Source of the DNA: Rhodospirillaceae bacterium TMED23
Lineage (GTDB): Bacteria > Pseudomonadota > Alphaproteobacteria > Rhodospirillales > UBA2165
Length of the DNA: 52,974 bases
Assembly (NCBI GenBank): GCA_002168115.1
Contig: NHCC01000012.1
Coordinates: 204,755 to 257,728 of the forward strand
Direction: 5' to 3'
The number at the start of each line of letters is the position of its first letter. Positions within the stretch are counted from its first letter, which is position 1. Below are positions 3,542 through 39,638 of this stretch, in pieces. The notes below the pieces were generated by a model. The model searched no databases and was not told the origin of the DNA. It saw nothing but the letters and a program-made list of their open reading frames with translations. Position numbers and translations under genes: made by a program.

Positions 3542-4297
3542 TTATTTGGGTCTTAAAATATGTTTATGATCCTTTGTGTAGAGCTTGCTATCTATAAAAT
3601 CTTGCGCACCAAAAACATCACCAACCAAAATTAATGCCGTTCGTGTAATTTTCTCCACGCGAACTTTCTCTCTAATGTTAGATAAAGTGCCAAATAATAT
3701 TTTTTGATCAGGCCAAGTTACTCGATAAGCAATACATACAGGACAACCTTCACCATAATGAGGAAGAAGATCTTCTGTCACTTTTTTCAAGTTTCTAATT
3801 GAAAGATGTATTGCTAAAGTCGCTTTGGTTGCACCCAGCCTCTTAAGATCTTCACCCGCTGGCATCGCCGAGGCTTTGCCGCCTGTCCGGGTAACGATTA
3901 CAGTCTGTGAAATTTCAGGTAATGTTAATTCTTGTTTTAGCTCAGCTGCGGCGGCTGCAAAAGCGGTAACACCTGGTGTCACATCATATTCAATTCCAAG
4001 CTGATCCAATCTTCGCATTTGTTCAGCAATAGCACCATAGATGCTTGGATCACCAGAATGTAAACGCGCGACGTCAAAACCCCCTAACGAAGCTTCCTCC
4101 ATTTTATGGATAATTTGATCAAGATGCATCGAGGATGTATCTATAATTTGAGCCCCTATAGGCGCCGACTCAGTTAATTCAGTAGGGACTAACGATCCCG
4201 CATATAGGCAAACTTGGGAAGTTTCTATATACTTTAATCCACGCAGTGTTATTAGGTCTGCGGCTCCTGGCCCCGCACCGATAAAATGTATTGTCAC
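3542..4297 (-). CDS. cobM: Precorrin-4 C11-methyltransferase
   Basis: 251 residues, the usual CobM/CbiF length. FIGAGPGAADLITLRG, YAGSLVP, ARLHSGDPSIYGA and TPGVTAF are CobM signatures; the HSGDPSIYGA motif separates it from CobI and CobJ. It methylates C11. The GTG start shares its first base with the last base of the TAG stop of the cbiG-cobJ fusion (TAGTG), so translation is probably coupled. It is the last gene of the minus-strand operon that begins with the cbiX-like gene. Confidence 0.95.
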   Translation of the reverse strand: MTIHFIGAGPGAADLITLRGLKYIETSQVCLYAGSLVPTELTESAPIGAQIIDTSSMHLDQIIHKMEEASLGGFDVARLHSGDPSIYGAIAEQMRRLDQLGIEYDVTPGVTAFAAAAAELKQELTLPEISQTVIVTRTGGKASAMPAGEDLKRLGATKATLAIHLSIRNLKKVTEDLLPHYGEGCPVCIAYRVTWPDQKILFGTLSNIREKVRVEKITRTALILVGDVFGAQDFIDSKLYTKDHKHILRPK

Positions 4298-6132
4298 TAA
4301 TTAAGATCCTTTTTATTGCTATAACCTCGCGGGGTATACATATGTTTACTTTGATTATTACATTGTAATAATTTGGACTGACTGCTGCCAATAACAACAA
4401 TCGTCAGCATATCAATTAATTTAACATCTAATTCGGACAGCGTTAGAAAGGAAATTTTCTCATTGTTACGGCCTAAATTTTTTCCAAGAGCCACCGGTGT
4501 TTCAGGATCTCGATATTTTAAGATTATATCTTTGGCTATACCAAGTTGCTCCTTTCTCTTAACAGATACTGGGTTATAGAGTGCTATAACAAAATCACCC
4601 TCCGCAGCAGCAACTAATCGCCGCTCAATTGCATCCCAAGGTGTCAATAAATTCGATAATGAGATTGTGCAAAAATCATGGCCAAAGGGAGCCCCAATAC
4701 GAGCAGCAATCGCCTGGAAGGCTGAAATTCCGGGCACTACTCGCACCTCGAGCCTTTGCCAAGCTTCTCTCCCCACTTCAGTCATGCTTCTATCTAAATT
4801 CTCAAAGACTAGAGAAGCCATTGCATATATCCCAGCGTCACCGCTCGAAATTAACGCCACATTCTTCCCTTCAGAAGCTAAATCGAGCGCTTTAACCACG
4901 CGGTCATTCTCTTGACCTAGAGGAAACCGATGTTGAGATTTATCATCAGCTAGAGAACCAAGCAGATCGAGATAAAGAGAATAACCGACAATATCAGACG
5001 CCTTTGCAATTTCATTTGTTGCTTCAGGTGATCGCCAAATAGCAGAACCTGGTCCTATACCAATAACATAAAGACAACCGCGCGCCCTACCGATAGCACT
5101 CGGATCTATTATTTTTTTTGCTATGGCTACCGCGCAAGTCATTCCACTCCTAACTTGTTTGGGAACAATCAATTCACCATCAGATCCCGCCGCAGACAAA
5201 GCAGAGGCCTCACTAACACTATGGGAGCCAACTACAGAAAAAACATATTTCGAAGGATCAGACACCTGAGAGGTCTTACTATTCAATTCTTTTGCAGTAA
5301 ATAGCCTTAAAGGAACTTCTAAAGCAGCAGAGAGGTCACTTATTGCTACCTCATCTTCTTTAATTTCAATTGTCGAAATACACGCAATCGATTCTTTATT
5401 GAGATTATATTCAGATAAAATATCATTTATGAATGTGTAAAGCTCACTTGAGTCAACTCCTCGCTCACATCCTATTCCTAGAGACAGAATACTTGGACAA
5501 AAAATAGTTTTCTTTAATCCTTCAGATTGTGCCTTATAAGAAATTATTAATTCGTGTCTGGCCTTTTTAGAGAACTTGATCCCTGCCCCCAATAACCAGT
5601 TTTTATCTAGGTCATTACTCGTCTCATCACACAGGTTAACGCTTCCTCCATTTAGGAGATCCGCCATTACAACCTTTATATTTTCTCCCCCAATTATTTT
5701 CCAACCTTTTGGCGGCGCATCCAATGAAACTCCAAATCTTAAATCACCAGCGGTTGTTACAGAAAGGTTGCCTCCTAATATTGAGTTCAGCCTGTGGCCA
5801 ATTTCATTAGCACCCCTATGTCCACCGAGCAAAGGAATAATTGACTTCCCATCTTCAGATAAAATGAGCACAGGAGGCTCGCTAAATTTATCATTTAGCA
5901 ATGGAGCAAGGGCTCTTATTAAGATTCCAGTTGAGAGAATAGCTATGATCGGGCGCCCATTTGAAAATAACGTCTTTAGATGTTTTACCGTTTCTTGGAA
6001 ATGCACATCTGCGTCTAATACACGCCCAACAAGACCATGAATCTCAGTTCCGGGTAAATGAGACCGTACCTTCCGCGCTAGGCCAGCACTGGTTTCATTT
6101 ATTGTTAAAATAACTGGCGAACTTTCTATCAT
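4297..6132 (-). CDS. cbiG-cobJ: CbiG-CobJ fusion: cobalt-precorrin-5A hydrolase and precorrin-3B C17-methyltransferase
   Basis: A 611-residue two-domain protein. Residues 1 to about 340 are CbiG: the LLGGHRGANEIGHRLN motif near 101-116 and a C-terminal half with SLGIGCERG and SVSEASAL. Residues about 352 to 600 are CobJ/CbiH, starting LYVIGIGPGSA, then ALISSGDAGIYAMA and VVPGISAFQA. CobJ/CbiH contracts the ring while methylating C17, and CbiG opens the resulting lactone and releases acetaldehyde, so the fusion joins successive steps. Similar fusions are known, for example in cyanobacteria. It starts in a 4-base ATGA overlap with cobI and ends in a 1-base overlap with cobM. No frameshift is visible across the join. 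Confidence 0.94.
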   Translation of the reverse strand: MIESSPVILTINETSAGLARKVRSHLPGTEIHGLVGRVLDADVHFQETVKHLKTLFSNGRPIIAILSTGILIRALAPLLNDKFSEPPVLILSEDGKSIIPLLGGHRGANEIGHRLNSILGGNLSVTTAGDLRFGVSLDAPPKGWKIIGGENIKVVMADLLNGGSVNLCDETSNDLDKNWLLGAGIKFSKKARHELIISYKAQSEGLKKTIFCPSILSLGIGCERGVDSSELYTFINDILSEYNLNKESIACISTIEIKEDEVAISDLSAALEVPLRLFTAKELNSKTSQVSDPSKYVFSVVGSHSVSEASALSAAGSDGELIVPKQVRSGMTCAVAIAKKIIDPSAIGRARGCLYVIGIGPGSAIWRSPEATNEIAKASDIVGYSLYLDLLGSLADDKSQHRFPLGQENDRVVKALDLASEGKNVALISSGDAGIYAMASLVFENLDRSMTEVGREAWQRLEVRVVPGISAFQAIAARIGAPFGHDFCTISLSNLLTPWDAIERRLVAAAEGDFVIALYNPVSVKRKEQLGIAKDIILKYRDPETPVALGKNLGRNNEKISFLTLSELDVKLIDMLTIVVIGSSQSKLLQCNNQSKHMYTPRGYSNKKDLN

Positions 6133-9752: not shown

Positions 9753-10745
9753 ATGCTGGAACCATGTATCTTTTTTATATTACTCCTTGCTATTTTAATA
9801 GATGCTATTGTTGGTGATCCAGATTTTATATATCTGCGATTAAAGCACCCAGTTCAACTTATGGGATTGATGATAAGCTATCTAGATGAAAATCTTAACA
9901 AACAAAATCAAAATAGCTTTTATCAACGTATTAGCGGCATAATTTTAATAATTTTCTTATTAATTTTAAGTGCGCTTTTTGGATTAGTTCTAAAACATAT
10001 TTTTAATCTGATTCCTCATGGATGGATTTTGGAGGCTTTTATTATTTCAACAATGATAGCGGCTAAAAGTTTATATCAACACGTAAAATCTGTTCAAAAT
10101 AGCCTTCAGACTAGCACTCTCGATGAAGCACGCTTAGAAGTTTCAAAAATTGTTGGGCGTAATACCAAGGACTTGAACAATCATGGGGTCGCTCGATCGG
10201 CCATTGAGTCTTTGTCAGAAAATTTCTCAGATGGTATTATAGCTCCAATATTCTGGACAGTTATCTTTGGGTTACCCGGAATACTAGCCTACAAAATGTT
10301 AAATACAGCAGATAGCATGATAGGTCATAAAAACCATAAATATATTTATTTTGGATGGGCGTCAGCTCGACTTGATGATATCGCTAATTTTATACCCGCC
10401 CGAATTTCTGCCTTATTATTTTGTATAGTTGCGAGCCTCAGTGGAAGAGCAGCCTTTATCAGGTCTTTCAAAGCCGTACATAGAGATGCAAAGAAGTTAG
10501 ACTCAATAAATTCAGGCTACCCAGAGGCTGCCATGGCAGGCGCATTAAACCTTATTTTGGCAGGGCCACGCCTTTATAGTGGAGAGGATTTTAAAGGAAA
10601 ATGGATAGGAGACTCGGTCAAAGGAAGTACTTCTAATGCAACACATAAGGAGATAGGAAAAGCTCTATCACTTTATATAAAAGCTTGTATACTATCTTTC
10701 TTTTTAGTCACTTTGATTACCCTATTTTTCATAGACAGATGTTAA
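9753..10745 (+). CDS. cbiB: Adenosylcobinamide-phosphate synthase (membrane)
   Basis: 330 residues with several hydrophobic segments. It joins aminopropanol phosphate to adenosylcobyric acid at the inner membrane; alphaproteobacteria often call it CobD. Family signatures are LIDAIVGDPDFIYLRLKHPVQLMG near the start, IVGRNTKDLNNHGVARSAIESLSENFSDGIIAPIFW in the middle and NTADSMIGHKN after it. The GYPEAAMAGAL segment near 250 is also typical. Divergent from the cbiX-like gene across about 165 AT-rich bases with no recognised riboswitch. The aminopropanol donor enzyme (threonine-phosphate decarboxylase) is not in the window. Confidence 0.95.
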   Translation: MLEPCIFFILLLAILIDAIVGDPDFIYLRLKHPVQLMGLMISYLDENLNKQNQNSFYQRISGIILIIFLLILSALFGLVLKHIFNLIPHGWILEAFIISTMIAAKSLYQHVKSVQNSLQTSTLDEARLEVSKIVGRNTKDLNNHGVARSAIESLSENFSDGIIAPIFWTVIFGLPGILAYKMLNTADSMIGHKNHKYIYFGWASARLDDIANFIPARISALLFCIVASLSGRAAFIRSFKAVHRDAKKLDSINSGYPEAAMAGALNLILAGPRLYSGEDFKGKWIGDSVKGSTSNATHKEIGKALSLYIKACILSFFLVTLITLFFIDRC

Positions 10746-10815
10746 CAAATTAATCAAATTAAAATAATTGTATGGTCTATTTAAGGAATAAGGAACAATC
10801 TGAAGGATCAGAGAA

Positions 10816-11982
10816 TTGCCAGTATCGCTAAATCATTTAAAGCCTATCACCTCAAAATTAGCATCTATAGCAACGATACTGTTATCACTATCGACCCTTT
10901 TAATATGCACGGAGCCACAATCCCAAGAAAATAATCTAACAATTGGAATTGCTGATTTAGTTGTTAACAAAGTCTTTGGAAATTCTCTATCTTCAAGAAT
11001 TGAAAATGGACAAAACATATTAGCCAATCAGAGAATTAGAACGGGAAGAGACAGTGCGACAAGTATAAGCTTAAAAGATGATTCAATAATTAAAATTGGC
11101 GAGATAGCAGATGTATACATGGATAATATTGTTTTTGATAGAACGGGATCTTCGTTAAATGGCTCTATGGAGATGGTGACTGGTCTCCTGAGATTTACTT
11201 CGGGTAAAATTCATAGAATGAATTTGAAAATACAGACGGGAAACTTAACAATTGGAATTCGAGGAACCCAATTTGATTTACTAGCGAACCGCAGCAAGAC
11301 AGAAATAAAAGTTACCCAAGGCCAGGTTCAAGTTTCCAAGGGGGGCCTAAAAACATTGGTATCAGAAGGTCAGATCTATTTAGCCGATGAAAATACCAGT
11401 TCAGGACTCAGAAAAAAAATCTCAAAAGAGCTCAAGCAAGCGATCTTAAAGCTTGAAAGTCTGACAGGAAATAAATTAATTAGCAAAAATGACATAAATA
11501 ATCGTGAAGAAGAAAAGAAAATTTCATCAAATAATCAAAACCTACTAAAAATTTACACAACAAAAGGCCTAATCACCATAAGAATGTTACCAAGTCTAGC
11601 AGAGAGACATGTTACACGTATTAAGGAACTTGTGACTCAAAAATTCTACGATAACCTGATTTTCCATAGTGTACGAAAAGGTTTTGCCGTGGAAACAGGC
11701 GACCCGACAGGTACTGGAAGTGGTGGGTCCGGCAAAAAGCTATTGGCAGAAATCTCTAAAACGCCATTCGAGCGGGGGACAGTTGCAATGAAAAGAAATA
11801 GAAACAACCCCAATAGCGGCGATAGTCAGTTTTTCATTACATTAAGACGGGCACCCCATTTAGATGGTAAATATACTATTTGGGGAAAAGTTATAGGGGG
11901 AATGGGGTTATTAGAGGAGTTTCAGGCGGGTAATCCACCAATAAATCCCGAAAGAATTATAAATATTAAAATAGCTGACTAA
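10816..11982 (+). CDS. Exported FecR-domain and cyclophilin-type peptidyl-prolyl isomerase fusion
   Basis: 388 residues from a TTG preceded by AGGATCAG; an in-frame stop lies four codons upstream and no nearby ATG exists. Residues about 14-36 form a signal-like hydrophobic stretch, so it probably acts in the periplasm. Residues 65-175 look like a FecR domain (ILANQRIRTGRDSA, LTIGIRGTQFDLL, VTQGQVQV). A charged linker (195-242) leads to a cyclophilin domain from 244 to the end (GDPTGTGSGG, GDSQFFITL, LDGKYTIWGKV). The catalytic arginine of the FHR motif is serine here (Ser285), and the glutamine of QGGD is Glu293, so isomerase activity is doubtful. It sits 70 bases after cbiB and ends 9 bases from convergent cobQ. 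I do not know of this fusion in a B12 locus. Confidence 0.8.
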   Translation: MPVSLNHLKPITSKLASIATILLSLSTLLICTEPQSQENNLTIGIADLVVNKVFGNSLSSRIENGQNILANQRIRTGRDSATSISLKDDSIIKIGEIADVYMDNIVFDRTGSSLNGSMEMVTGLLRFTSGKIHRMNLKIQTGNLTIGIRGTQFDLLANRSKTEIKVTQGQVQVSKGGLKTLVSEGQIYLADENTSSGLRKKISKELKQAILKLESLTGNKLISKNDINNREEEKKISSNNQNLLKIYTTKGLITIRMLPSLAERHVTRIKELVTQKFYDNLIFHSVRKGFAVETGDPTGTGSGGSGKKLLAEISKTPFERGTVAMKRNRNNPNSGDSQFFITLRRAPHLDGKYTIWGKVIGGMGLLEEFQAGNPPINPERIINIKIAD

Positions 11983-11991
11983 TGCGGACAG

Positions 11992-13449
11992 TTAATCTAC
12001 AAGAGCCAATAAACCTTCTATATCCAGATTATCCTGCAAAATATTTGCAATTGAGTCTAAAGCTGTCTCTGTTTGTTGATCATAATTAATTCCAGAACTT
12101 TCTCGATCTTTAATACTAAATAAAAATTTATTTCTGAATTTATCATTCTCAAATAATCCATGTAAATAACAACCCATAACTCTCCTATTATTAGAAACCG
12201 CACCAGAATTACGTTTATCAATTTTACAAAACGGTCTAACATCATCTGGTCCAGAGGTAACACCCAAATGCATCTCATATCCTGTAAACATACCAAAGCC
12301 CATGTTTGAATGTGCAATAACATTAGATAGAGACTTATCTCCTCCTATTTCTGTATCAACATCCAATACACCTAGTCCATTAATTGACATAAGATCGCTC
12401 TCAATTTTATTCGGATCGAGTATTTTTCTGCCTAGCATTTGATACCCTGCGCATAGTCCCAACACATGTCCACCCCTTCTAATATGGGCACTTATATCTA
12501 CATCCCATCCTTGTTTTCTGAAATCTGCCAGATCTGGTATAGTTGTTTTGGATCCGGGTAAGATGATTAAATCGGCATCGCCAGGAAGTGGATTGCCCCG
12601 GTTTATAAATTGTAAATCAACATCTGGCTCAGCCAACAATGGGTCAAAATCATCAAAGTTAGAGATATGCGCTAGACGAGGGATAATTATTTTTATGTGC
12701 GACGGTCGAAGTGGTAAAATTGTATTATCAAGTGTATGTGCATCTTCTTGGGGTAATTTAATGGCTTCCTCCATAAATGGGAGTATACCGTAACAATGTA
12801 AACCTGTTTTATCGAAAATTAATTCAATAGCTTCCTTGAATAAACTTACATCGCCGCGAAACTTATTGATTATATAACCAGCAACCAAGTTTCTCTCTTC
12901 TTTAGGCAATAGTTCCCAAGTCCCCACAATACTTGCGATCACGCCACCACGATCAATATCTGCTACTAAAATAACTGGTGTTTGAGTTGCGACGGCATAA
13001 CCCATATTCGCTATATCATTATCTCTTAAGTTTACTTCCGCTGCGCTGCCAGCGCCCTCAACAATAATTAAATCAGTGCCAACCTCAAGTCGCTTAACAG
13101 CATCTATAACCAAGGGTAATAGTTGTATTTTTTTTTCTTGATATAATTTCGCTGGATAATTACCGTCTACTTTTCCCAAAATAATTAATTGTGCACCGAT
13201 TTCGGACTGGGGTTTAAGAAGTATAGGGTTCATATCAATACTTGGCGAAACCCGACACGCCTTAGCCTGCAAAGCCTGAGCTCTTCCTATCTCACCACCT
13301 TCTTTGGTAACCGCCGCATTATTAGACATATTTTGAGGTTTAAAGGGCTTAACCTTCAGACCTCTTGTAGTCATTAACCTACATATCCCCGCGACCACGA
13401 GGGATTTACCAACATCAGACCCTGTGCCTTGAAACATAATCGAGCGCAT
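11992..13449 (-). CDS. cobQ: Cobyric acid synthase (glutamine-hydrolysing)
   Basis: 485 residues, usual CobQ/CbiP length. The N-terminus MFQGTGSDVGKSLVVAG is the dethiobiotin-synthetase-like ATPase loop, NPILLKP and EGAGSAAEVNLR follow, and the C-terminal half has the type 1 glutamine amidotransferase nucleophile in VLGLCAGYQMLG with a late histidine in GCYLHGLFEND. It amidates side chains b, d, e and g of adenosylcobyrinic acid a,c-diamide. Last gene of the seven-gene minus-strand operon beginning with cobS; three bases separate it from cobO. It ends nine bases from the convergent FecR-cyclophilin gene. Confidence 0.97.
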   Translation of the reverse strand: MRSIMFQGTGSDVGKSLVVAGICRLMTTRGLKVKPFKPQNMSNNAAVTKEGGEIGRAQALQAKACRVSPSIDMNPILLKPQSEIGAQLIILGKVDGNYPAKLYQEKKIQLLPLVIDAVKRLEVGTDLIIVEGAGSAAEVNLRDNDIANMGYAVATQTPVILVADIDRGGVIASIVGTWELLPKEERNLVAGYIINKFRGDVSLFKEAIELIFDKTGLHCYGILPFMEEAIKLPQEDAHTLDNTILPLRPSHIKIIIPRLAHISNFDDFDPLLAEPDVDLQFINRGNPLPGDADLIILPGSKTTIPDLADFRKQGWDVDISAHIRRGGHVLGLCAGYQMLGRKILDPNKIESDLMSINGLGVLDVDTEIGGDKSLSNVIAHSNMGFGMFTGYEMHLGVTSGPDDVRPFCKIDKRNSGAVSNNRRVMGCYLHGLFENDKFRNKFLFSIKDRESSGINYDQQTETALDSIANILQDNLDIEGLLALVD

Positions 13450-22080: not shown

Positions 22081-22824
22081 TTAGCGTCTCAAAAAACGCG
22101 AGAAGTAATTATTACCAATTGGTCTCATATAGAAAAACGCTGTCATAAAACTGATGACAATCCACATTATCACTGAAACAAAAAGAGAAAGCATAACAAA
22201 TTTTGCCGCTAACTCAGGAGACGAGGGACCAGACATAGTGCTATTAGCCACTGGCGCTCCGAAAATATGGGGAAGTGTAAGCACTATACCGCCTGAAAAT
22301 CTCAATAAATTCGCCTTACCAAATGCTATTAGCAAAAAACCAACAATGCTTAAAAATGCTGTCATTAACCACCATAATTGTCGATCCATCAAATCAGCTC
22401 GGGTAGCTCCGGGCAATTCTGCGGGCAAGCCAAGACCTGGCAAAAATGAAAAACTTAAAAAACCTGCCCCACCCCACAATAAACCTTGTAACAACGAGAC
22501 ATCACGGCCATAAATTGCAAAACCAGCAACGAGCAATAAACTGTATGCAATAGCTGTAATAATATGGGCTATAAGCGTATAGAATGATCGTTCAATGCCG
22601 TCATGCGGAGACCATTCACTTCCGTCATGAACATGGTGGGTATCTGGTTTACTAGAATTTTGGCTACTATCCTGAACCATATTTTCGGACGACTTGCTAC
22701 TACTAACCTTTTCAAAAATTTCGGCTTGAGTGATAAGGGGCTGTAAAAGGGTTAAATGCAATACAAACACTATACACCCTGCAACCAGTCCAGCCATAAG
22801 TCCTGAAAACAATAATTTAAACAT
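22081..22824 (-). CDS. cbtA: CbtA family cobalt transporter subunit
   Basis: About 247 residues from the ATG at 22824; the ORF track starts one codon earlier at a TTG. It has about five hydrophobic segments: one at the N-terminus (FSGLMAGLVAGCIVFVLHL), a histidine- and serine-rich loop (HHVHDGSEWSPHDGIERS), then four more with SFLPGLGLPAELPG, a family hallmark. CbtA with CbtB is predicted from riboswitch and neighbourhood evidence to be a cobalt transporter. It follows cbtB by 11 bases and so should share its upstream cobalamin riboswitch. Confidence 0.93.
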   Translation of the reverse strand: MFKLLFSGLMAGLVAGCIVFVLHLTLLQPLITQAEIFEKVSSSKSSENMVQDSSQNSSKPDTHHVHDGSEWSPHDGIERSFYTLIAHIITAIAYSLLLVAGFAIYGRDVSLLQGLLWGGAGFLSFSFLPGLGLPAELPGATRADLMDRQLWWLMTAFLSIVGFLLIAFGKANLLRFSGGIVLTLPHIFGAPVANSTMSGPSSPELAAKFVMLSLFVSVIMWIVISFMTAFFYMRPIGNNYFSRFLRR

Positions 22825-22835
22825 CAAAAACTTTT

Positions 22836-23030: not shown

Positions 23031-23160
23031 CCCTCCGTGTCAGATCTTATGATTGGTATCTGGCTTGCATTATGCTCACAGTTGCGGGGGCAGCTACGGA
23101 TTAGTGACTTAGTTTAACTCACCGTATTCCCAATTCATATTTAATTAGAGTACCAAAGAT
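23031..23160 (-). promoter_or_regulatory. Cobalamin riboswitch before cbtBA
   Basis: Read on the minus strand, this holds the B12-element core in order: GGGAATACGGTGAG, AATCCGTAGCTGCC, CCCGCAACTGTGAGC and GCCAGATACC. Flanking ATCTT...TGGTA and TACCA...AAGAT can pair to close the element. Between GGTG and AATCC there is a longer insert than usual (GTGA and TCAC could pair). The element runs into the GGAGGG site of cbtB, which suggests control of translation rather than termination. The spacer from 23022 to 23352 is otherwise this riboswitch plus AT-rich promoter sequence for the plus-strand gene at 23353. Confidence 0.92.
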
Positions 23161-23287
23161 TAGATTTAGTCAATAGAAAATTAAATTTTTTCTACTTTAT
23201 TTGTCCTAAAATAATCAATCCTTATGGTATGGATGTTTTAATAAATTTCTTTAGCGAAAAAACACTATTTTTTAAGTTTAATTTGAA

Positions 23288-28006: not shown

Positions 28007-29089
28007 TTATTTAGGGATTGTTCCATCAACCCCTTCAACATAGAAATTCATGCCAAGAAGCATACCATCGTCAGCCATCTTTCCTGCTGGAATCACAATC
28101 TTACCAGATTGATCCTTAATCGGTCCAGTAAACGGATGCACTGTCCCTGCTATTATTCCATCTTTAGCTTTCTCAGCCATGGCAACAACATCAGATGGGA
28201 TAGCTTTGTTATAAGGAGCCATTTTTACCATACCTGACTTAAATCCACCCCAAGTATCTTGAGAACTCCATGTTCCATCAAGCATAGCTTTGGTACGATT
28301 AATATAATATGCATTCCAGTCATCTATAATCGCCGTTAATTGGGCTTTAGGTCCAAAATTAACCATATCGGAAGCTTGACCTACAGCCCAAACTTTATTT
28401 TTTTGAGCCTGTTGAAGAGGAGCTGGGGAGTCCGTGTGTTGAAGTATCACATCTGCACCCTGAGCAATGAGAGCTTTCGCAGCATCGGCCTCTTTGCCTG
28501 GATCAAACCAAGTTGAGACCCAAACAACCTTTATCTTTATTTTTGGATTAACTGAACGCGCCGCAATAATTGTTGAATTGATTCCCCTAATTACTTCTGG
28601 GATCGGGAAAGAAGCCACATAGCCAAGAATATTAGATTTCGTCATTTTACCGGCTATCAAACCTACAACGTGTCTTCCTTCATAAAAACGTCCGGAGTAA
28701 GTTGCGAGGTTTTTTGACCGCTTATAGCCAGTCGCATGCTCAAATTTAACTTTAGGAAAACGCTTAGCAATCTTTAAAGTAGGATTCATATATCCAAAAG
28801 AAGTTGTAAAAATAAGATCATGTCCAGATCGAGCTAATTTTGTAATTACTCGCGTTGCATCTGCGCCATATGGAACCGACTCTACGTAAGTCGTTTTAAC
28901 CTTGTCGCTAAAGGTTCTAGCGATAGCTAATCGACCAGCGTTATGCTGATAAGACCATCCATGGTCTCCAATAGGCCCAACATAAACAAAACCAACTTTT
29001 GCTTTTTTCTCGGCAGCACTTCCATCAGCTGCATTAAATAACATTCCGGTTATCAGAAAGACACCAAGAATTAAACGTTTAAAAATCAT
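28007..29089 (-). CDS. BMP-family ABC transporter substrate-binding protein (purine or nucleoside)
   Basis: About 360 residues from the ATG at 29089, preceded by AGGAGA. The ORF track starts 12 codons earlier inside the permease stop region, but the signal peptide begins at MIFKRLILGVFLITG, with likely cleavage after GSAA. VGFVYVGPIGDHGWSYQHNAGR is the Bmp/PnrA family start and HATGYKRSKNLATYSGRFYEGRHVVGLIAGKM is a conserved block. It captures a purine or nucleoside in the periplasm for the adjacent permeases. It lacks the lipobox cysteine seen in Gram-positive relatives. Confidence 0.93.
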   Translation of the reverse strand: MIFKRLILGVFLITGMLFNAADGSAAEKKAKVGFVYVGPIGDHGWSYQHNAGRLAIARTFSDKVKTTYVESVPYGADATRVITKLARSGHDLIFTTSFGYMNPTLKIAKRFPKVKFEHATGYKRSKNLATYSGRFYEGRHVVGLIAGKMTKSNILGYVASFPIPEVIRGINSTIIAARSVNPKIKIKVVWVSTWFDPGKEADAAKALIAQGADVILQHTDSPAPLQQAQKNKVWAVGQASDMVNFGPKAQLTAIIDDWNAYYINRTKAMLDGTWSSQDTWGGFKSGMVKMAPYNKAIPSDVVAMAEKAKDGIIAGTVHPFTGPIKDQSGKIVIPAGKMADDGMLLGMNFYVEGVDGTIPK

Positions 29090-29124
29090 TAATTTTCTCC
29101 TATCTCTTATTAAAGTTAACCACA

Positions 29125-30048
29125 TTAATCTGAAGCATGAAAACTTTTACCCAAGTCAGCTGGAGCATTTAACATCATCCTAGAACTATTATTTGATATA
29201 AGCACAAGAACTACTATTGTCGCAAGATAAGGTAGCATAGATAAAAATTGTGAAGCTATATCTACACCAAAACCTTGAGCGTGTAATTGAATAATTGTTA
29301 TACCTCCAAATAAGTATGCTCCAAAAAATGCCCTCCAAGCCCTCCAAGAGGCGAAGACCACCAGAGCCAACGCGATCCAACCTCTTCCCGCTGTCATACC
29401 TTCAACCCAAAGAGGCGTATATGCAAGTGATAAATAGGCTCCACCTAAACCAGCCATTGATCCACCAAATAAAATACAACCCATTCTAACCCAAACGATT
29501 GAATATCCTATTGAGTGTGCTGCATGATGATTCTCACCAACGGCTCTAATGATTAAACCCAAGCGCGTTTTATTAAAAACATAAGTGATAAGAAAAACGG
29601 CTATAACTGATAAGTATACTAAAATATCATGGACAAATAAAAGTGGTCCCAAAACTGGAATTTGTTCGAGAAATGGTACTCCAATTTTTGGAAGTCCAGA
29701 AAATGTTTTTCCAACAAATCCATGTCCTATCAATGCTGAAAGTCCCAATCCAAAGATTGTTAAAGCTAACCCAGTTGCAACCTGATTGGCTAATAATCGT
29801 AATGTTAAGAAACCAAAAATAAAAGCTGTAAGCATTCCCCCAGCAGCTCCTGAAATTATAGCCAAGGCTGCACTCTCAGTTTTGACCCCTACCGCGAATG
29901 CTATAACAGCTCCAACTATCATCATTCCCTCAACGCCAAGATTTAGAACACCAGATTTTTCAACGACTACTTCACCTGCTGCCGCAAATACTAAGGGTGT
30001 AGATGCCGTTATAATAGTCAGTAATACCGGAACAAACAATTCAGACAT
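29125..30048 (-). CDS. ABC transporter permease, NupQ/YufQ type
   Basis: 307 residues, strongly hydrophobic with about eight to ten segments. The N-terminal FAAAGEVVVEKSGVLNLGVEGMM is the conserved start of this purine/nucleoside permease family, and IIRAVGENHHAAHSIGYS is the cytoplasmic EAA-like loop. It forms the heteromeric channel with the preceding permease. Nine bases separate it from that gene; its stop overlaps or adjoins the leader of the binding protein gene. Confidence 0.93.
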   Translation of the reverse strand: MSELFVPVLLTIITASTPLVFAAAGEVVVEKSGVLNLGVEGMMIVGAVIAFAVGVKTESAALAIISGAAGGMLTAFIFGFLTLRLLANQVATGLALTIFGLGLSALIGHGFVGKTFSGLPKIGVPFLEQIPVLGPLLFVHDILVYLSVIAVFLITYVFNKTRLGLIIRAVGENHHAAHSIGYSIVWVRMGCILFGGSMAGLGGAYLSLAYTPLWVEGMTAGRGWIALALVVFASWRAWRAFFGAYLFGGITIIQLHAQGFGVDIASQFLSMLPYLATIVVLVLISNNSSRMMLNAPADLGKSFHASD

Positions 30049-30057
30049 AAATAATAC

Positions 30058-31137
30058 TCATTCAACATTCCTATGCTTATTTTTATAACCGATAATTTGA
30101 ATTCTATATCGAACGAGGACATCGGATGCCAATAAGAAAAAGAGTAACATCCCCTGAAATACGCCCGTAACTGCATTTGGCAGATTTAATTCGATTTGAG
30201 CATTATCTCCACCGAGATATGTCAGTGCCATGAGTAATCCGGACAACAGGCATCCTATTGGATGTAGGCGCCCCAAAAAAGCTACAATAATTGCGGTAAA
30301 GCCATAACCTGGCGAGATCACTGGAATTATCTGTCCTATTGGTCCAGAAACTTCAATAGTCCCCGCAAGACCTGCCAAACCACCACTGATAAGAAAACTG
30401 ATCCAAATTATATTCTTACCTCTAAATCCAGCAAAATTTGATGCCATTGGCGCCATGCCCATTACGCGAATTTGAAATCCAATTAAATGGTAAGTCATTA
30501 AAATCCATGCAACGGGTACACAAATCAGCGTTATTATCCAACCCAAATGTAGTCGAGTTTCATCCAGAATTATCGGTAAAAGCCCAGCTTCAGGGAATAA
30601 ACGCGACTCTGGAAAATTTTGTCCCTCAGGGTCTTTCCACGGGCCATGTATCAAATAACTTAGAATCAAAAGAGCAATATAAGTAAGCATTAAACTCGTT
30701 AAAATCTCATTTGTTCCAAATTTAATTTTTAAAAATGCTGGTATTCCAGCCCATACCATTCCTCCTAGAATCCCAAAAATAAGCATTCCCGGCATTAAAA
30801 ATTGTGAGCTTGAATTAAAAAACAGCAAACCCAAACCACCACCAGCTAGTGCTCCAATCGTTAATTGGCCTTCTGCGCCAATATTCCAGATATTCGCCCT
30901 AAAGCAAAAAGACAGGCCAATAGCTATCAAAACCAAAGGCGTCGCTTTAACGCAAAGTTCAGCGACACCATCAATGGAGCTTACAGGTTCAACGAAAAAA
31001 GTTATAATAGCTTGAGTTGGATTAACTCCAAGAAAACTAAATATTAACATACCCGTTAAAAAGGTCATAATAACAGCAAAAACTGGCGAACAATAGACCA
31101 TGCGCTCAGAAACCTGTCCCCGAAGTTCTAGCCTCAT
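30058..31137 (-). CDS. ABC transporter permease, NupP/YufP type
   Basis: 359 residues with several membrane segments. CFRANIWNIGAEGQLTIGALAG is the family signature, and FKIKFGTNEILTSLMLTYIALLL-like sequence (KFGTNEILTSLMLTYIA) follows; the cytoplasmic loop has VMGMAPMASNFAGFRG. It pairs with the downstream NupQ-type permease. Its ATG overlaps the ATPase stop by four bases (ATGA), so production of the two is coupled. Confidence 0.93.
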   Translation of the reverse strand: MRLELRGQVSERMVYCSPVFAVIMTFLTGMLIFSFLGVNPTQAIITFFVEPVSSIDGVAELCVKATPLVLIAIGLSFCFRANIWNIGAEGQLTIGALAGGGLGLLFFNSSSQFLMPGMLIFGILGGMVWAGIPAFLKIKFGTNEILTSLMLTYIALLILSYLIHGPWKDPEGQNFPESRLFPEAGLLPIILDETRLHLGWIITLICVPVAWILMTYHLIGFQIRVMGMAPMASNFAGFRGKNIIWISFLISGGLAGLAGTIEVSGPIGQIIPVISPGYGFTAIIVAFLGRLHPIGCLLSGLLMALTYLGGDNAQIELNLPNAVTGVFQGMLLFFLLASDVLVRYRIQIIGYKNKHRNVE

Positions 31138-32675
31138 AATTGCGTACCTAAAATGTCATTTCCAGAGGGCTTTATACCGGACATTAACAAACCAACATTC
31201 TCAACAGTTATATTTTCAACTATTTCAGGTTTTGTCAGCTCGCCCTCACATATAACGGAAATTTTATCTGAAATTTCAAATAGCTCCTCCAAATCTTGGC
31301 TGATTACGACAACTACAGCACCTCTATCAGCTATATCCATTAACGATTGCCTGATATAAGCCGCAGATCCCGCATCAACACCCCACGTTGGTTGAAAAAC
31401 AATCAGTACCTTAGGGTCCTGTAAGATTTCCCGACCAAAAATAAATTTTTGTAAATTTCCCCCAGATAAAGAATTTGCTGTTACATTAACGTTCGGAGTT
31501 TTCACATTAAACCTAGAAATAATTTTCTCGGCATATTCTCTAGATTTTGTAACATTCATAAAACCATTAAGCATTAATTTCATCGATTGATATCCAGATA
31601 AAAAAGCATTCTCCCACAACAGCATTTCCGGAACCGCTCCATGACCAAGGCGTTCTTCTGGAACAAATCCAAGACCTTTCTCGCGTCTTTTTCTAGGTCC
31701 TAGATTACCAACGCTAACTTGATCAATACTGACTAAACTGTCATCAGATGCTGTAATTTCACCACTAAGAACTTCCATAAGCTCGATTTGTCCATTACCA
31801 GCTATTCCAGCAATACCAAGTATTTCTCCTTTATGCGCTTTAATAGTAATATTTTTGAGGTCAGTGCCATGTTCCATAGTTGCCTGATGGTTCAAATTAA
31901 TCACAGAGAAATACGGTTTTTCTGATACCAATCGTTCATTCTTTTTAGTCACAATTAGATTTGTGCCCATCATCATCTCAGCCATACTCCTAGGGCTCTC
32001 CTCCGATGGTATACACGTGTCAACAACTTCACCGGCACGCATGATCGTTGCCACATGGCACAAATCAATAATCTCCTGTAATTTATGACTGATATAAAGT
32101 ATGGCGACACCTTGTGCAGACAATCTTCTTAGTGTTTTAAAAAGCTTATCGACTTCCTGAGGCGTCAATACTGAGGTGGGTTCATCCATAATTAGTAGTT
32201 TTGGATTTTGTATCAAGCACCGAACAACTTCAATTCTTTGACGTTCACCAACGGAAAGCGTATGAACATACCGATATGGGTCAAGCGGAAGACCATATTT
32301 TTCCGAAATATCTATAATATTCTGTTTAAGATTTTCATTTGCTAAAGTAGCCGGAATTCCAAGAGCAATATTCTCTTCAACAGTCATCGCATCAAAAAGA
32401 GAAAAATGCTGAAAAACCATTCCAATACCCAACTTTCTCGCAATCTGCGGGGTAATTTGAGAGATTTCAGAACCTTTCCATTTTATTTTTCCCGTGTCAC
32501 AGCGTTGAACTCCATATATAATTTTGACAAGTGTAGATTTCCCAGCTCCATTTTCTCCTAAAAGAGCATGTATCTGACCTGGCTTAATTTCTAAATTTAC
32601 TCGGTTATTGGCAATAACACCGGGATAACCTTTACAAATTTCAAGAAGCTCTAATATTGGTTTTTTATCTGCCAT
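31134..32675 (-). CDS. ABC transporter ATP-binding protein with two ABC domains, NupO/YufO type
   Basis: 513 residues with two ATPase halves. The first has Walker A GENGAGKSTLVK, LSVGERQRIEVVRCL and LLIMDEPTSVLT. The second has a degenerate Walker A (GIAGNGQIELMEVLSG, lacking GK), LSGGNLQKFIFGRE and VLIVFQPTWGVD, where the usual glutamate after Walker B is absent. This asymmetry is normal for nucleoside and sugar importers of this class. The ATG lies inside the xdhB tail (11-base overlap), which ties importer synthesis to the dehydrogenase. Confidence 0.94.
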   Translation of the reverse strand: MADKKPILELLEICKGYPGVIANNRVNLEIKPGQIHALLGENGAGKSTLVKIIYGVQRCDTGKIKWKGSEISQITPQIARKLGIGMVFQHFSLFDAMTVEENIALGIPATLANENLKQNIIDISEKYGLPLDPYRYVHTLSVGERQRIEVVRCLIQNPKLLIMDEPTSVLTPQEVDKLFKTLRRLSAQGVAILYISHKLQEIIDLCHVATIMRAGEVVDTCIPSEESPRSMAEMMMGTNLIVTKKNERLVSEKPYFSVINLNHQATMEHGTDLKNITIKAHKGEILGIAGIAGNGQIELMEVLSGEITASDDSLVSIDQVSVGNLGPRKRREKGLGFVPEERLGHGAVPEMLLWENAFLSGYQSMKLMLNGFMNVTKSREYAEKIISRFNVKTPNVNVTANSLSGGNLQKFIFGREILQDPKVLIVFQPTWGVDAGSAAYIRQSLMDIADRGAVVVVISQDLEELFEISDKISVICEGELTKPEIVENITVENVGLLMSGIKPSGNDILGTQL

Positions 32676-34989
32676 GGTTAGCCTTCTTAGAATTATTGAG
32701 TGCCATAAGAATAGCTTCAGGAGTAGCCGGGGCGTTCAATTTAGGTGGAATGTTTGAGCCGTTACTTCGGGAAATCGCATCTCGGATTGCCAACCATACG
32801 GATATAGCCAACATTAATGGAGGTTCTCCTACTGCTTTAGATCTAAAAATTGTTTGCGCTTTATTAGGTTCATCCTCAAGAATATGTATATTAAAATCTT
32901 GAGGAACATCTCGGCTACCCGGTATTTTATAAGTAGAAGGACCATGAGTTAGAAGTTCCCCAGTTTTATTCCATACCAACTCCTCAGAAGTCAGCCAACC
33001 CAAACCTTGCACAAAAGCTCCTTCAATCTGACCATAATCCACACGAGGATTAAGCGACTTGCCACAATCTTGAATGATATCAGTCCTTAATGTTCTGGAC
33101 TCGCCCGTTAACAAATCAATGACAACCTCCGAAATCGCAAACCCATAGGTAAAATAATAGAATGGGGTGCCAGAACAGGAAATTGGATCCCAAGAAATAT
33201 CTGGCGTTTTATAATAGCCCGTAGCGGATAGCGATAGGCGGGCTTCCCATGTCATTTGAGCTAAATCTGCAAATGATATATTTTTATTTCCACAATAAAT
33301 TCGATTTTGCCGGAAATTTATTTTATTTTTATCTGACCCAAAATATTGAGCTGCAACTGCAATCATTCTATTCTTTATTTTATCAGCCGCATCATAGGCT
33401 GCCATTCCATTTAAATCAGAACCTGCTGATGCCGCTGTAGCAGAAGTATTGGGAACTTTGTCGGTTCGAGTCGCAGAAATTTTTATATTTTCAATATCAA
33501 TCTGAAATACAGTGGCGACGACTTGAGCGATTTTAACAAAAAGCCCTTGACCCATCTCTGTCCCGCCATGATTTAGATAAACCGATCCATCAGTATAAAC
33601 ATGTATCAACGCTCCAGCTTGGTTCAAAGCTGGCATATTAAAAGAAATACCAAATTTTACTGGCATAGCTGCGATGCCCTTTTTTAGAATTGTATTTTCA
33701 AGGTTAAAATTTTCAATTTCTTTCTTTCGGGCCCTATAATCAACTTTTCGCATTAGCTCATCTGAGAGTTTGCAAATGATATTGTCTTTTACAATCTGAC
33801 CATAGGGTGTCTCATTTCTATCATTAATACCGTAGTAATTTATTTGTCGAATTTCATCTATCGGCTTATTCAGATGAAAACTAATATGTTCAAGAATACA
33901 CTCTATAATCAGCATACCTTGTGGTCCGCCAAATCCACGGAAAGCTGTATTGGATACTGTATTTGTTTTGCATGGATAACCTCGAAATCTTACGTTTGGC
34001 AAAAAATAGCAATTATCGGCATGGCATAATGAACGCGCTAATACTCCAGAACTCAAATCAGCAACATTGCCTGATCTCATTGCCATAGCAATGTCTATTC
34101 CTTCAATTTGTCCGTCCATACCAAATCCCACATCATACTCAAAATCGTAGTCATGTCGTTTCCCAGTAATGATCATATCAGCATCTCTTCGTAGCCTTAA
34201 TTTCGATGGTCGACCAGTTTTAACAGCGACAAGCGCTGCCAACGATGCGATAATTGTCGGCTGACTCTCTTTACCACCAAAGGCCCCACCCATTCGACGA
34301 ACCTCAACTGTTACCGCGTTCATCGGAATTCCCAAAACATTTGCAATTCCGTGTTGGGCTTCGGTTGGATGCTGGGTCGAACAATAGACACTAATATCTT
34401 TATCTTCTGGGCTGGGAATCGCGAGAGCTATATTAGCCTCGAGATAAAAGTGATCTTGTCCGCCACATTTCAGGGTTCCCTGTAAGCGATGATTTGCATT
34501 TTTGATAGCTTTATCTGGGTCACCCTTACAAATAACCGGAGGTTTAAAAGTAAAGCTATCTCTCTTAATAGCATCTTGGATAGACAAAATTGGTTCTAAT
34601 TCAGTATAGTCTATTTCCACCAATTTTGAAGCATGGTAAGCTTGGTCGTATGTTTCCGCCGCCAAAATAAGAATGGGGTGTCCAACGTATTCAACACAAT
34701 CAATAGCCAAGATTGGCTCCCCCTCAAAAACTGGAGCAACATCATTTTTACCAATAATATCGGCTGCAGACAACACTGCTAAAACACCGGGTGAAGAAAG
34801 AGCCTTAGTTGTGTTAATAGAGTTTATCTTAGCGTGGGCAATCGGTGAAGTAATTAGAATGCATTCCAGTGTATTCGGCAATCTCGGCATATCATCAATA
34901 TAAATTGCCTCCCCGGTAACATGTTTTACAGCACTATCATGTTGAACATTATCATGTGCCGCCCCAATAATTTGGTTTTTATGAACCAT
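32665..34989 (-). CDS. xdhB: Xanthine dehydrogenase, molybdopterin-binding subunit
   Basis: 774 residues, normal XdhB length. RRMGGAFGGKESQ, NTAFRGFGGPQGM and, near the end, SKAVGEPPLMLAISVW with the catalytic glutamate are the molybdenum-cofactor site motifs; GTEMGQGLFVKIAQV and TSATAASAGSDLNGMA also fit. With XdhA it oxidises hypoxanthine to xanthine and xanthine to urate. The start shares one base with the xdhA stop (TAATG). XdhC, the cofactor-inserting chaperone, is not seen in the window. Confidence 0.96.
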   Translation of the reverse strand: MVHKNQIIGAAHDNVQHDSAVKHVTGEAIYIDDMPRLPNTLECILITSPIAHAKINSINTTKALSSPGVLAVLSAADIIGKNDVAPVFEGEPILAIDCVEYVGHPILILAAETYDQAYHASKLVEIDYTELEPILSIQDAIKRDSFTFKPPVICKGDPDKAIKNANHRLQGTLKCGGQDHFYLEANIALAIPSPEDKDISVYCSTQHPTEAQHGIANVLGIPMNAVTVEVRRMGGAFGGKESQPTIIASLAALVAVKTGRPSKLRLRRDADMIITGKRHDYDFEYDVGFGMDGQIEGIDIAMAMRSGNVADLSSGVLARSLCHADNCYFLPNVRFRGYPCKTNTVSNTAFRGFGGPQGMLIIECILEHISFHLNKPIDEIRQINYYGINDRNETPYGQIVKDNIICKLSDELMRKVDYRARKKEIENFNLENTILKKGIAAMPVKFGISFNMPALNQAGALIHVYTDGSVYLNHGGTEMGQGLFVKIAQVVATVFQIDIENIKISATRTDKVPNTSATAASAGSDLNGMAAYDAADKIKNRMIAVAAQYFGSDKNKINFRQNRIYCGNKNISFADLAQMTWEARLSLSATGYYKTPDISWDPISCSGTPFYYFTYGFAISEVVIDLLTGESRTLRTDIIQDCGKSLNPRVDYGQIEGAFVQGLGWLTSEELVWNKTGELLTHGPSTYKIPGSRDVPQDFNIHILEDEPNKAQTIFRSKAVGEPPLMLAISVWLAIRDAISRSNGSNIPPKLNAPATPEAILMALNNSKKANHGR

Positions 34990-36407
34990 TATAAATCGAC
35001 CACTTGATTCGGCTTATTTGGGTCTAACAGATCAAAATAAAATCGTTTAAATAAATTTCCAGCTACCTGATTTCGATAAGTTGAACTAGCACGGAAATCA
35101 CTGATGGGCTTAAATTCCTTTGAAATTTTCTCAGATACTTTATAAATATTTTCCTCATTCCATGTTTTGCCGATAAGTTTTTTCTCGGACTGATTTGCTC
35201 TCCTAGGGATTGCGTCCATTCCACCAAAAGCAATAATAGTTTTTGCTACAATTTCTTGGTTAAACTCAACTAGGAAAGCTCCTATTACAGCAGAAATATC
35301 CTGATCATAGCGCTTTGAAACTTTATAAGCTTTAAATGTTTGATTAGCATTAAGTTTTGGAATACTTACCGATTGTATAAATTCTCCCTTTTTAAGATTT
35401 GTTTTACGATAGCTAATAAAAAAATCTTCCAGATCTATTCTACGCTCCCCAAGATCAGAACAAATTTGAAGCTGAGAGTTCAAAGCCATCAAACACGGCA
35501 ATGTATCGCCTATTGGAGATGCAGTTGCTATATTGCCACATAGAGTTCCAACATTTCTGATTTGATCAGATCCTATTCGAGTTACTAGATTGGCAAAAGA
35601 AGGAAAAAGCTTCTCTAAGTAGGGCAAAATTTCCGAATAAGTTACGGCAGATCCAATCGTCAAAGCCTCTTTTGTCTCTTCTATGATCCCAAGCTCTTTT
35701 ACATCTCCAGTGAAAATAATTAACGGTGTCGTTTTCCTATCTTTACTAAATGAGATTCCTAAGTCTGTTCCTCCCGCAAGTAACGTAGATGATGGATAGG
35801 TAGAATAAATCTTTGATAATTCCTTTAAAGTCTTGGGTTTAAAAAATCGTTGTCCATCATGATTATATTCTGCAACGGTAGAAAGATTTTCTGATATAGC
35901 TTTTTTCTTGGTAAAGGTGCGTTCTTGACGTGCAGCATCAACAATTGACCTATAACCAGTACACCTGCACAAATTTCCTGCTAGAGCCTCATGAATGTTT
36001 TTATCTGTTTGGATTTTATTACTATTATAAAATGCATATAATGACATCATGATACCTGGTGTGCAAAAACCGCACTGAGTGCCATCTCCCTCTACCATTG
36101 ACTTCTGAATAGGTTCGAGTACAGCGCCTCTATTTTTAGATTTGCAAGCCAGCCCTTCAATAGTGAGTATGTGTTTTCCATCGGCCTGCGGCAAAACGAG
36201 CAAACATGAATTAATAACGCGATATGTAGTATTGCGTTTCTGCCTCTCAGCAATAATAACCGTACATGCTCCACAATCTCCCTCAGCGCACCCCTCTTTT
36301 GTACCCTTTAAAGAAATATATTCACGTAAGTAATCGAGTAGGGTCACCGTAGGAGAAATCCTTTCGATTTTCTGAGATACGCCATTTATTGTAAATTGGA
36401 GTGCCAT
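34989..36407 (-). CDS. xdhA: Xanthine dehydrogenase, iron-sulfur and FAD subunit
   Basis: 472 residues from the ATG at 36407; the ORF track uses a TTG ten codons upstream, but MALQFTINGVSQK matches the family start and AAAAGG lies before it. The N-terminal 2Fe-2S ligands are in GCAEGDCGACTV, the second cluster in CGFCTPG and CRCTGYRSIV, and the FAD domain starts near LLAGGTDLGIS. It passes electrons from the molybdenum subunit to NAD. It follows puuD after a short gap, so it is probably in the same long operon. Confidence 0.94.
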   Translation of the reverse strand: MALQFTINGVSQKIERISPTVTLLDYLREYISLKGTKEGCAEGDCGACTVIIAERQKRNTTYRVINSCLLVLPQADGKHILTIEGLACKSKNRGAVLEPIQKSMVEGDGTQCGFCTPGIMMSLYAFYNSNKIQTDKNIHEALAGNLCRCTGYRSIVDAARQERTFTKKKAISENLSTVAEYNHDGQRFFKPKTLKELSKIYSTYPSSTLLAGGTDLGISFSKDRKTTPLIIFTGDVKELGIIEETKEALTIGSAVTYSEILPYLEKLFPSFANLVTRIGSDQIRNVGTLCGNIATASPIGDTLPCLMALNSQLQICSDLGERRIDLEDFFISYRKTNLKKGEFIQSVSIPKLNANQTFKAYKVSKRYDQDISAVIGAFLVEFNQEIVAKTIIAFGGMDAIPRRANQSEKKLIGKTWNEENIYKVSEKISKEFKPISDFRASSTYRNQVAGNLFKRFYFDLLDPNKPNQVVDL

Positions 36408-36475
36408 AGAGTGGTCGACCTTTTCAATATTATTCAATCATACCCATTTTATTCAAAAATCTTTTTCATCGTTTG

Positions 36476-37678
36476 CTATTCATCTACCGGCATCCCCCGC
36501 CTTATCCAATCTCCAACACCCTGACGCTCCTTGTTGGTCATCTGAGTTTCATTAACAAGAGGCATAGCATTAGTGAGGACCGATTGTTTCATTATTTGAG
36601 AACCATATTTCTTTATATCATCAATTGTCTCTAGTTTTACCCCACCTGGAGCCTTAACAAAATCTTTATGTAATGGGTTCGCCGCATGACAACTAACACA
36701 ATGGGTTTGAACTATCGCCAGCACATCATTTGAATCCAACTGATCTTCTTCTAAAACCTCAACGACATCTCGATGACTCACAAATATAATTAATATTGTC
36801 ATAAATATTGCTGCCGATGGCCATTGCCATTTTAAACGATTTCCAGTTTTACCTTGATTTTTTGAATTAAAATAATCTCGAATTATTCCACCTACAATAA
36901 TAACTAAACCAACAACGAGCCATGAGTGTTTTGTAGAAAATATCATAGGAAAATGTGAACTGATCATCATTAAAAGTACGGGCAAAGTTAAATAATTATT
37001 GTGAGTTGACCTCTGCTTACCCTCCTCCCCAAGAAATTGGGCCGGTTCTCCGCCATCAACAAGGGCTTTAATTATTATTTTTTGGTTCGGAATAATTATA
37101 AAAAAGACATTTGCCACCATTATAGTGCCAATCATCGCTCCAACATGAACAAAGGCGCCGCGCCCACTATATACATGAGTAAAGCCGTACGATGCCAATA
37201 ATATCATTAAAAACACGATTATTGACAATATTAAATCGTTTTCCCCTAATTTTGATTTACATATGCCATTATAAATAAACCAGCTTAAGATAAAAGATCC
37301 CAAACTAATTATAACTGCTTGCCACACATTTATGTCCATGACCTCTTTATCGATTAAGAAGCTCTCAGCGCCCCAATAATATATAATTATCATCAATGAA
37401 AAGCCTGATATCCAAGTAAAATACGCCTCCCATTTAAACCAGTGAAGCTCAGAGGGCATTTTCTCAGGCGCTACAGTATATTTCTGCATAAAATAAAAAC
37501 CACCCCCATGAACATTCCAGGCTGCACCTTTAACTCCTGATGGTAAACCATCATCTTTCCTGAGACTATAATCTAAAAACATAAAATAAAATGATGAGCC
37601 AATCCAAGCTATTCCTGCAATCAAGTGGAGCCATCTAAAGCCTAACTCAATCCAGTCCGCGTAAGCTATTTCAATCAT
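36476..37678 (-). CDS. puuD: Membrane urate hydroxylase with C-terminal cytochrome c domain
   Basis: 400 residues. Residues 1 to about 300 have eight or so membrane segments beginning ELGFRWLHLIAGIAWIGSSFYFMF, the PuuD signature. The C-terminus is a cytochrome c domain with CVSCH at 327-331 and a likely methionine ligand in NAMPLVN near 372. PuuD oxidises urate to 5-hydroxyisourate and sends electrons to the respiratory chain instead of making peroxide, unlike soluble uricase. It lies between uraH (21-base gap) and xdhA. Confidence 0.95.
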   Translation of the reverse strand: MIEIAYADWIELGFRWLHLIAGIAWIGSSFYFMFLDYSLRKDDGLPSGVKGAAWNVHGGGFYFMQKYTVAPEKMPSELHWFKWEAYFTWISGFSLMIIIYYWGAESFLIDKEVMDINVWQAVIISLGSFILSWFIYNGICKSKLGENDLILSIIVFLMILLASYGFTHVYSGRGAFVHVGAMIGTIMVANVFFIIIPNQKIIIKALVDGGEPAQFLGEEGKQRSTHNNYLTLPVLLMMISSHFPMIFSTKHSWLVVGLVIIVGGIIRDYFNSKNQGKTGNRLKWQWPSAAIFMTILIIFVSHRDVVEVLEEDQLDSNDVLAIVQTHCVSCHAANPLHKDFVKAPGGVKLETIDDIKKYGSQIMKQSVLTNAMPLVNETQMTNKERQGVGDWIRRGMPVDE

Positions 37679-37699
37679 TTATATTTACCTTTTAAAAGT

Positions 37700-38053
37700 T
37701 TAACTGCCACGATATGTGGTGTAAGAAAAAGGAGAGACAAGAAGTGGGACATGATAATGCTCATCTGAAGAACTAATATTAAACCTAACCGGAATAATAT
37801 CTAGAAAATTATTTATTCCCATATCTGAATTTAGATTTTTAAAATATTCTCCTATATAAAAATTTAACTCATATGTCCCAACTACAAAATCCTCGCCCTC
37901 CAATATGGGTTTAGAACATCTTCCGTCCTTGTTTGTTGAAACCTTAATAATATTTGCAGTTTTACTTTTCAAAATTCTCTGCAGTTCAATCTGAACATTT
38001 GAGGCTGGACATCCATTTGAAGTATCCAGTACATGTGTTGTTAAAAAACCCAT
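37700..38053 (-). CDS. uraH: 5-hydroxyisourate hydrolase
   Basis: 117 residues, the bacterial transthyretin-like HIUase size. FLTTHVLDTSNGCPA at the start and the C-terminal SPFSYTTYRGS are the two family signatures; catalytic histidines are in TTHV and EHYHVPLL. It hydrolyses the PuuD product to OHCU. No signal peptide, so cytoplasmic. First gene of the leftward purine operon, divergent from puuE. Confidence 0.95.
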   Translation of the reverse strand: MGFLTTHVLDTSNGCPASNVQIELQRILKSKTANIIKVSTNKDGRCSKPILEGEDFVVGTYELNFYIGEYFKNLNSDMGINNFLDIIPVRFNISSSDEHYHVPLLVSPFSYTTYRGS

Positions 38054-38135
38054 AATTATTATTTTATCCTAAATATTGAGCTGATTGTAGTTAATTTTCA
38101 TCTAAGTTATAATGTGTATGTTACTTCAGCTTTAA

Positions 38136-38158
38136 TAACCGATGCAAGTATCGTTATC
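38136..38158. promoter_or_regulatory. Imperfect palindrome in the divergent purine promoter region, candidate operator
   Basis: ATAACCGAT, a GCAAGT spacer and ATCGTTAT form arms of eight pairs with one extra C on the left arm. It lies in the only 137-base spacer between the two divergent purine operons, about 33 bases before the puuE ATG. No regulator gene is near, so the binding protein is unknown. Confidence 0.3.
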
Positions 38159-38190
38159 ATTAGCGCATTGGTAAGAGGAACTATTAAATA

Positions 38191-39635: not shown

Positions 39636-39638
39636 GAT

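Follow-up and report, generated by a model that had tools for sequence, protein, structure and literature searches.

Periplasmic cyclophilins have so far been treated as folding enzymes. Among those of the Alphaproteobacteria, the AquaCyps of Hirschia baltica (5EX1, 5EX2) were, according to their authors, the first periplasmic class to carry additional domains without a catalytic role (PMC4898713); in these active proteins, which keep Arg55 and Gln63 (CypA numbering), the extra part is a NIC domain formed from N- and C-terminal extensions and a central insertion, with an inter-domain disulfide. The FecR fold is found in regulators of the FecR/PupR kind (6OVK, 4M0H), which have a cytoplasmic anti-sigma part, PupR being named an anti-sigma regulator in the title of entry 6OVK. 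It also occurs in secreted proteins with an export signal, among them Lsa33 (model NF047849) and the LysM-FecR proteins, in which it is joined to another envelope module (PMC5192318).

The gene described here lies in a 52,974-nucleotide stretch of Rhodospirillaceae bacterium TMED23 (contig NHCC01000012.1, positions 204,755 to 257,728), the whole of which we call the window, and its product consists of a FecR domain followed by a cyclophilin. Like the AquaCyps it is a two-domain, predicted periplasmic cyclophilin of an alphaproteobacterium, but its extension is a FecR and not a NIC domain, and because it has a single Cys an AquaCyp-type inter-domain disulfide is impossible. Unlike the FecR/PupR regulators it is without a cytoplasmic anti-sigma part, a cyclophilin following FecR instead, whereas in the LysM-FecR and Lsa33-type proteins the partner domain is not a cyclophilin. 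With the single-domain alphaproteobacterial cyclophilins (PF00160) the fusions share the fold and about 50% identity, and they branch within that group, yet the single-domain proteins have no FecR domain and keep Arg55, Gln63 and Ala101. Text searches, in which literature coverage was incomplete, found no paper with both 'FecR domain' and 'cyclophilin', and none combining FecR, cyclophilin, marine and Alphaproteobacteria. The fusion gives a known kind of protein a new domain plan.

Domain organization and structure models

The product of 388 aa is read from a single ORF at 10816-11982 of the plus strand, with a TTG start; the reverse strand of the same interval is crowded with stop codons. Scans at the fusion gene gave promoter matches no better than chance and no terminator. 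The features of the locus are as follows.

10816..11982, plus strand: FecR-cyclophilin fusion gene, 388 aa, TTG start (ORF and Pfam; recurs in relatives)
10802..10807, plus strand: possible ribosome-binding site GAAGGA, 8 bases 5' of the TTG (read from the sequence)
10816..10938, plus strand: signal-like N-terminus, residues 1-41, Lys residues followed by a hydrophobic helix (residues 13-30 in the model)
10939..11424, plus strand: FecR domain, residues 42-203 (Pfam match 73-172; structure model)
11425..11541, plus strand: helix and charged linker, residues 204-242, with 219-238 disordered (model)
11542..11979, plus strand: cyclophilin-fold domain, residues 243-388 (Pfam, fold match)
11668..11670, plus strand: Ser285 codon, aligned with Arg55 of CypA
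11692..11694, plus strand: Glu293 codon, aligned with Gln63 of CypA
11791..11793, plus strand: Lys326 codon, aligned with Ala101 of CypA
9753..10745, plus strand: cbiB/cobD neighbour, flanking the proposed insertion, no functional part (Pfam, locus comparison)
11992..13449, minus strand: cobQ neighbour, convergent, flanking the proposed insertion, no functional part (Pfam, locus comparison)

The original prediction of a FecR-cyclophilin fusion with a signal-like N-terminus is borne out by the ORF translation and by Pfam, in which FecR (PF04773) matches residues 73-172 (E 1.3e-13, 51.6 bits, cut-off 24) and Pro_isomerase (PF00160) residues 244-382 (E 1.7e-32, 113.3 bits, cut-off 21.7). The charged linker that it placed between the two domains is also present, at about residues 204-242, and measures 37-90 aa across the fusion family. 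A hydrophobic N-terminus is found in the full-length members, with AxA-type sites in several relatives and neither a clear lipobox nor a clear AxA cleavage site in the window member; from these sequence features the protein is apparently exported across the inner membrane.

In the full-length model (pLDDT 82, pTM 0.50) the linker is disordered at 219-238, and with this pTM the relative placement of the domains is therefore not fixed by the model. The cyclophilin part matches solved cyclophilins with target-normalised TM scores of up to 0.86. When modelled alone (pLDDT 91), the FecR part matches the signalling domains of PupR (6OVK) and BDI_1681 (4M0H, 4M0N) at TM 0.62-0.65 and, more weakly, the cell-surface anchoring domain 5IX9, which was also found in the first half by a PDB sequence search with the family profile (1e-5); the same search with the FecR part of the window protein alone gave no match.

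An anti-sigma role was considered and rejected: none of 24 members has an N-terminal cytoplasmic regulator domain, the hydrophobic segment of the window protein beginning near residue 13, and neither an ECF sigma factor nor a TonB receptor was among the 20 neighbours scanned, those in the window being cbiB and cobQ. The FecR fold match to sensor domains of sigma regulators would also suit a protein in which FecR, together with the cyclophilin as a ligand-binding lobe, recognizes a peptide in the envelope and relays this to a partner in the membrane, for example a CHASE2 cyclase or kinase. In one genome the fusion gene is convergent, within about 10 bp, with the gene for a CHASE2-guanylate/adenylate cyclase (L023 5493-9210), and FecR-LysM proteins occur with CHASE2 kinases in a Burkholderia operon (PMC5192318). 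We nevertheless regard such signalling as rather improbable, as the CHASE2 neighbour is confined to that one genome, the identified neighbours include no sigma or receptor gene, and a cytoplasmic regulator domain is missing throughout the 24 members.

Distribution of the fusion

A profile search with the fusion over 317 genomes of the order found it in 23, spread over four families (six genomes in the window's own family, 15 in f194 and one each in f9 and f18). Two genomes from a different order of Alphaproteobacteria also have it, so it is not limited to one genome, a check on which the original prediction had depended. In G021 the copy is truncated by the end of its contig. In the other order, G065 has a full copy and its congener G197 a copy frameshifted in the linker, with FecR and cyclophilin in different frames (L244 643-2208, 1029-1640 (-)); the frameshift is either a sequencing error or a real break. 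The C-terminus of the cyclophilin in G507 (L165 5872-7200 (+)) is wholly divergent past a QFFILLG motif, suggesting a frameshift there too. All 24 aligned members contain FecR and Pro_isomerase, and one shows an additional bPH_6 match that is weak and probably due to chance. Assembly error is ruled out, because the fusion is present in two single-contig genomes (G470, G471) and because a sister genome carries a copy that is 92% identical to that of the window and likewise begins with TTG. The spread is patchy: most genomes of the window's genus, one of them 98% complete, are without the fusion, and in an even draw of 399 genomes from the phylum the window genome was the only match at a strict threshold.

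Catalytic site and substrate groove

The Arg55 and Gln63 of catalytic cyclophilins are Ser285 and Glu293 in the window protein. These two changes had been noted at the outset; aligned with ordinary cyclophilins, both residues do fall in the columns of Arg55 and Gln63, and the changes turn out to define the whole family. The 25 distinct FecR+cyclophilin sequences have Phe (12), Asn (six), Tyr (three), Ser (three) or His (one) at position 55, the Arg being lost in 25/25, while position 63 is Glu in 24 and Val in one and is never Gln (0/25). Arg and Gln occur together in 170 of 171 readable non-fused cyclophilins, the remaining one having Lys and Gln; the underlying set of 175 proteins without FecR, four of which could not be read at these sites, is a non-random one, collected for its similarity to the fusions. 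The positions that best discriminate fused from non-fused proteins are 285, 293, 326 (Ala101) and 291 (Met61), all of them within the substrate groove, with 287, 328, 366 and 373 discriminating more weakly. The fusions all keep Phe112, Phe113 and Met100, Leu122 is present in 24/25, and Tyr at position 126 is common to fused and non-fused proteins. The pattern in the groove looks like remodelling, not random decay.

Loss of the Arg must be read with care. The R55A variant of CypA keeps residual activity, with an exchange rate roughly halved in one assay and a lower affinity (PMC9460772), and Arg loss alone is therefore no proof of inactivity; since Arg and Gln also aid substrate binding, binding may be weakened too. 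A precedent by analogy for Asn at position 55, the residue of six fusion members, is the cyclophilin domain of human PPIL4, a nuclear protein that, unlike the fusion, has an RRM domain, no FecR and no export; its activity was not testable, and the authors expected none on standard substrates (PMC2911226).

The main rival to a non-catalytic role is a periplasmic prolyl isomerase that works by means of a rearranged site, in which Glu63 and the aromatic residue or Asn at position 55 would stabilize the transition state differently, perhaps on a special substrate and with FecR localizing the enzyme. Glu63, nearly invariant at 24/25, looks selected and not decayed, R55A is not dead, and AquaCyp300 is selective yet active with an altered site (PMC4898713). 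We consider this rival unlikely all the same, because any of five residues may occupy position 55, none of which could obviously stand in for Arg, and the AquaCyps keep both Arg55 and Gln63. Every fusion genome searched contains at least one further, separate cyclophilin, and these, where read, retain Arg and Gln, so that the general isomerase role is probably covered by other cyclophilins.

Phylogeny and selection

With the three trait columns masked, the fusions form a single clade (support 99/92) that was present in all 200 bootstrap trees counted, and a larger tree nests this clade in ordinary Arg-bearing alphaproteobacterial cyclophilins; some members are on long branches, which makes the relations within the clade unsure. 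Between the window copy and that of the sister genome, FecR has a dN/dS of about 0.10 and the cyclophilin domain one of 0.23, with 0.95 in the linker, rough values that rest on few changes, and mean pairwise identity across the family is 0.54 in the cyclophilin domain versus 0.44 in FecR. Judged by these sequence comparisons, both domains are under purifying selection. That FecR alone works and the cyclophilin half is a decaying relic might be argued from three divergent members (G451, G464, G507) and the linker-frameshifted copy in G197, but this is improbable, the cyclophilin half being the more conserved and itself subject to purifying selection.

Proposed function

With moderate confidence we read the protein as a fixed pseudo-cyclophilin, most likely exported and largely non-catalytic, that would bind peptides or serve as a scaffold. 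We hypothesize that the FecR beta domain, the fold by which periplasmic sigma-regulator sensors contact partner proteins, would dock the protein to an envelope partner or oligomerize it. The signalling domain of PupR touches the periplasmic domain of a receptor. The cyclophilin domain, carried on a flexible linker, would retain the hydrophobic floor of the proline pocket and, with Arg55 and Gln63 lost and Ala101 and Met61 changed, would bind an extended or proline-containing peptide without efficient isomerization, the protein then acting as a scaffold, holdase or sensor. We infer export, inactivity, peptide binding in the groove and docking by FecR as parts of this explanation, and the 'periplasmic binding or sensing protein' of the original prediction remains the best reading of what the gene may encode. 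More tentatively, a FecR-joined cyclophilin may have been converted once into a non-catalytic peptide receptor, maintained by selection and with a Glu almost fixed in what used to be the catalytic groove; this would give some alphaproteobacteria a class of envelope sensor or adaptor not previously described. A clade that combines fusion to FecR with loss of both catalytic residues, under continuing selection, would be a bacterial example of cyclophilin binding that is naturally separated from catalysis.

Genome context

The fusion gene of the window shares its strand with cbiB, which ends 70 bp before it, and is convergent with cobQ at a distance of 9 bp. In the sister genome fusion and cobQ also lie together, on a contig that begins just before the fusion, so that the cbiB side is outside it. 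A protein related to B12, for instance a periplasmic binder of cobalamin or cobinamide, could be imagined from these positions; the original prediction had called the gene's place between cbiB and cobQ unexplained. A tie to B12 is not borne out. Nine relatives of the family that have both genes at the locus show cbiB and cobQ convergent, stop to stop at 0-29 bp, with no fusion between them; copies at cobQ do not recur beyond the window and its sister, the fusion lying elsewhere in other genomes; and in the window the fusion is on the strand opposite to the genes nearest the cobalamin riboswitch. A function in B12 metabolism is thus largely refuted and very improbable. One of the nine, G010, has both an uninterrupted cbiB-cobQ junction and, on a separate contig, the fusion next to a GST/maiA-like gene. 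The arrangement in the window is most simply explained by insertion of the fusion gene between cbiB and cobQ in the lineage shared with the sister genome. That the fusion lies in the B12 locus is an accident of lineage, and the case shows how the setting of a gene within a biosynthetic locus can be a misleading guide to its function.

No donor site for the fusion gene was found in the window genome, and neither of that genome's two GST/maiA-like genes (L236 and L240, that is, G000:C22 and G000:C17) has a fusion beside it. A GST/maiA-like gene is directly downstream of the fusion in G010, G016, G017 and, at a contig end, G014. A conserved operon partner was rejected, since this adjacency is confined to those four genomes, all from the window's family. 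In the remaining families the fusion has unrelated neighbours (a PALP enzyme, an abhydrolase, HNH genes, an E1 dehydrogenase, the CHASE2 cyclase and others), and the neighbourhoods compared across families share no partner gene.

Elsewhere in the window, a cobalamin riboswitch (RF00174, 54 bits) at 23034-23172 (-) lies upstream of a minus-strand ORF of 248 aa (22081-22827) that by eye resembles CbtA, a cobalt-transport membrane protein. The 611-aa ORF at 4297-6132 (-) appears by eye to join CbiG to a CobJ/CbiH-type methyltransferase. The region 28007-41160, again by eye, appears to hold a transporter and a set for purine and urate breakdown, with molybdenum hydroxylase, transthyretin-like and allantoicase-like ORFs.
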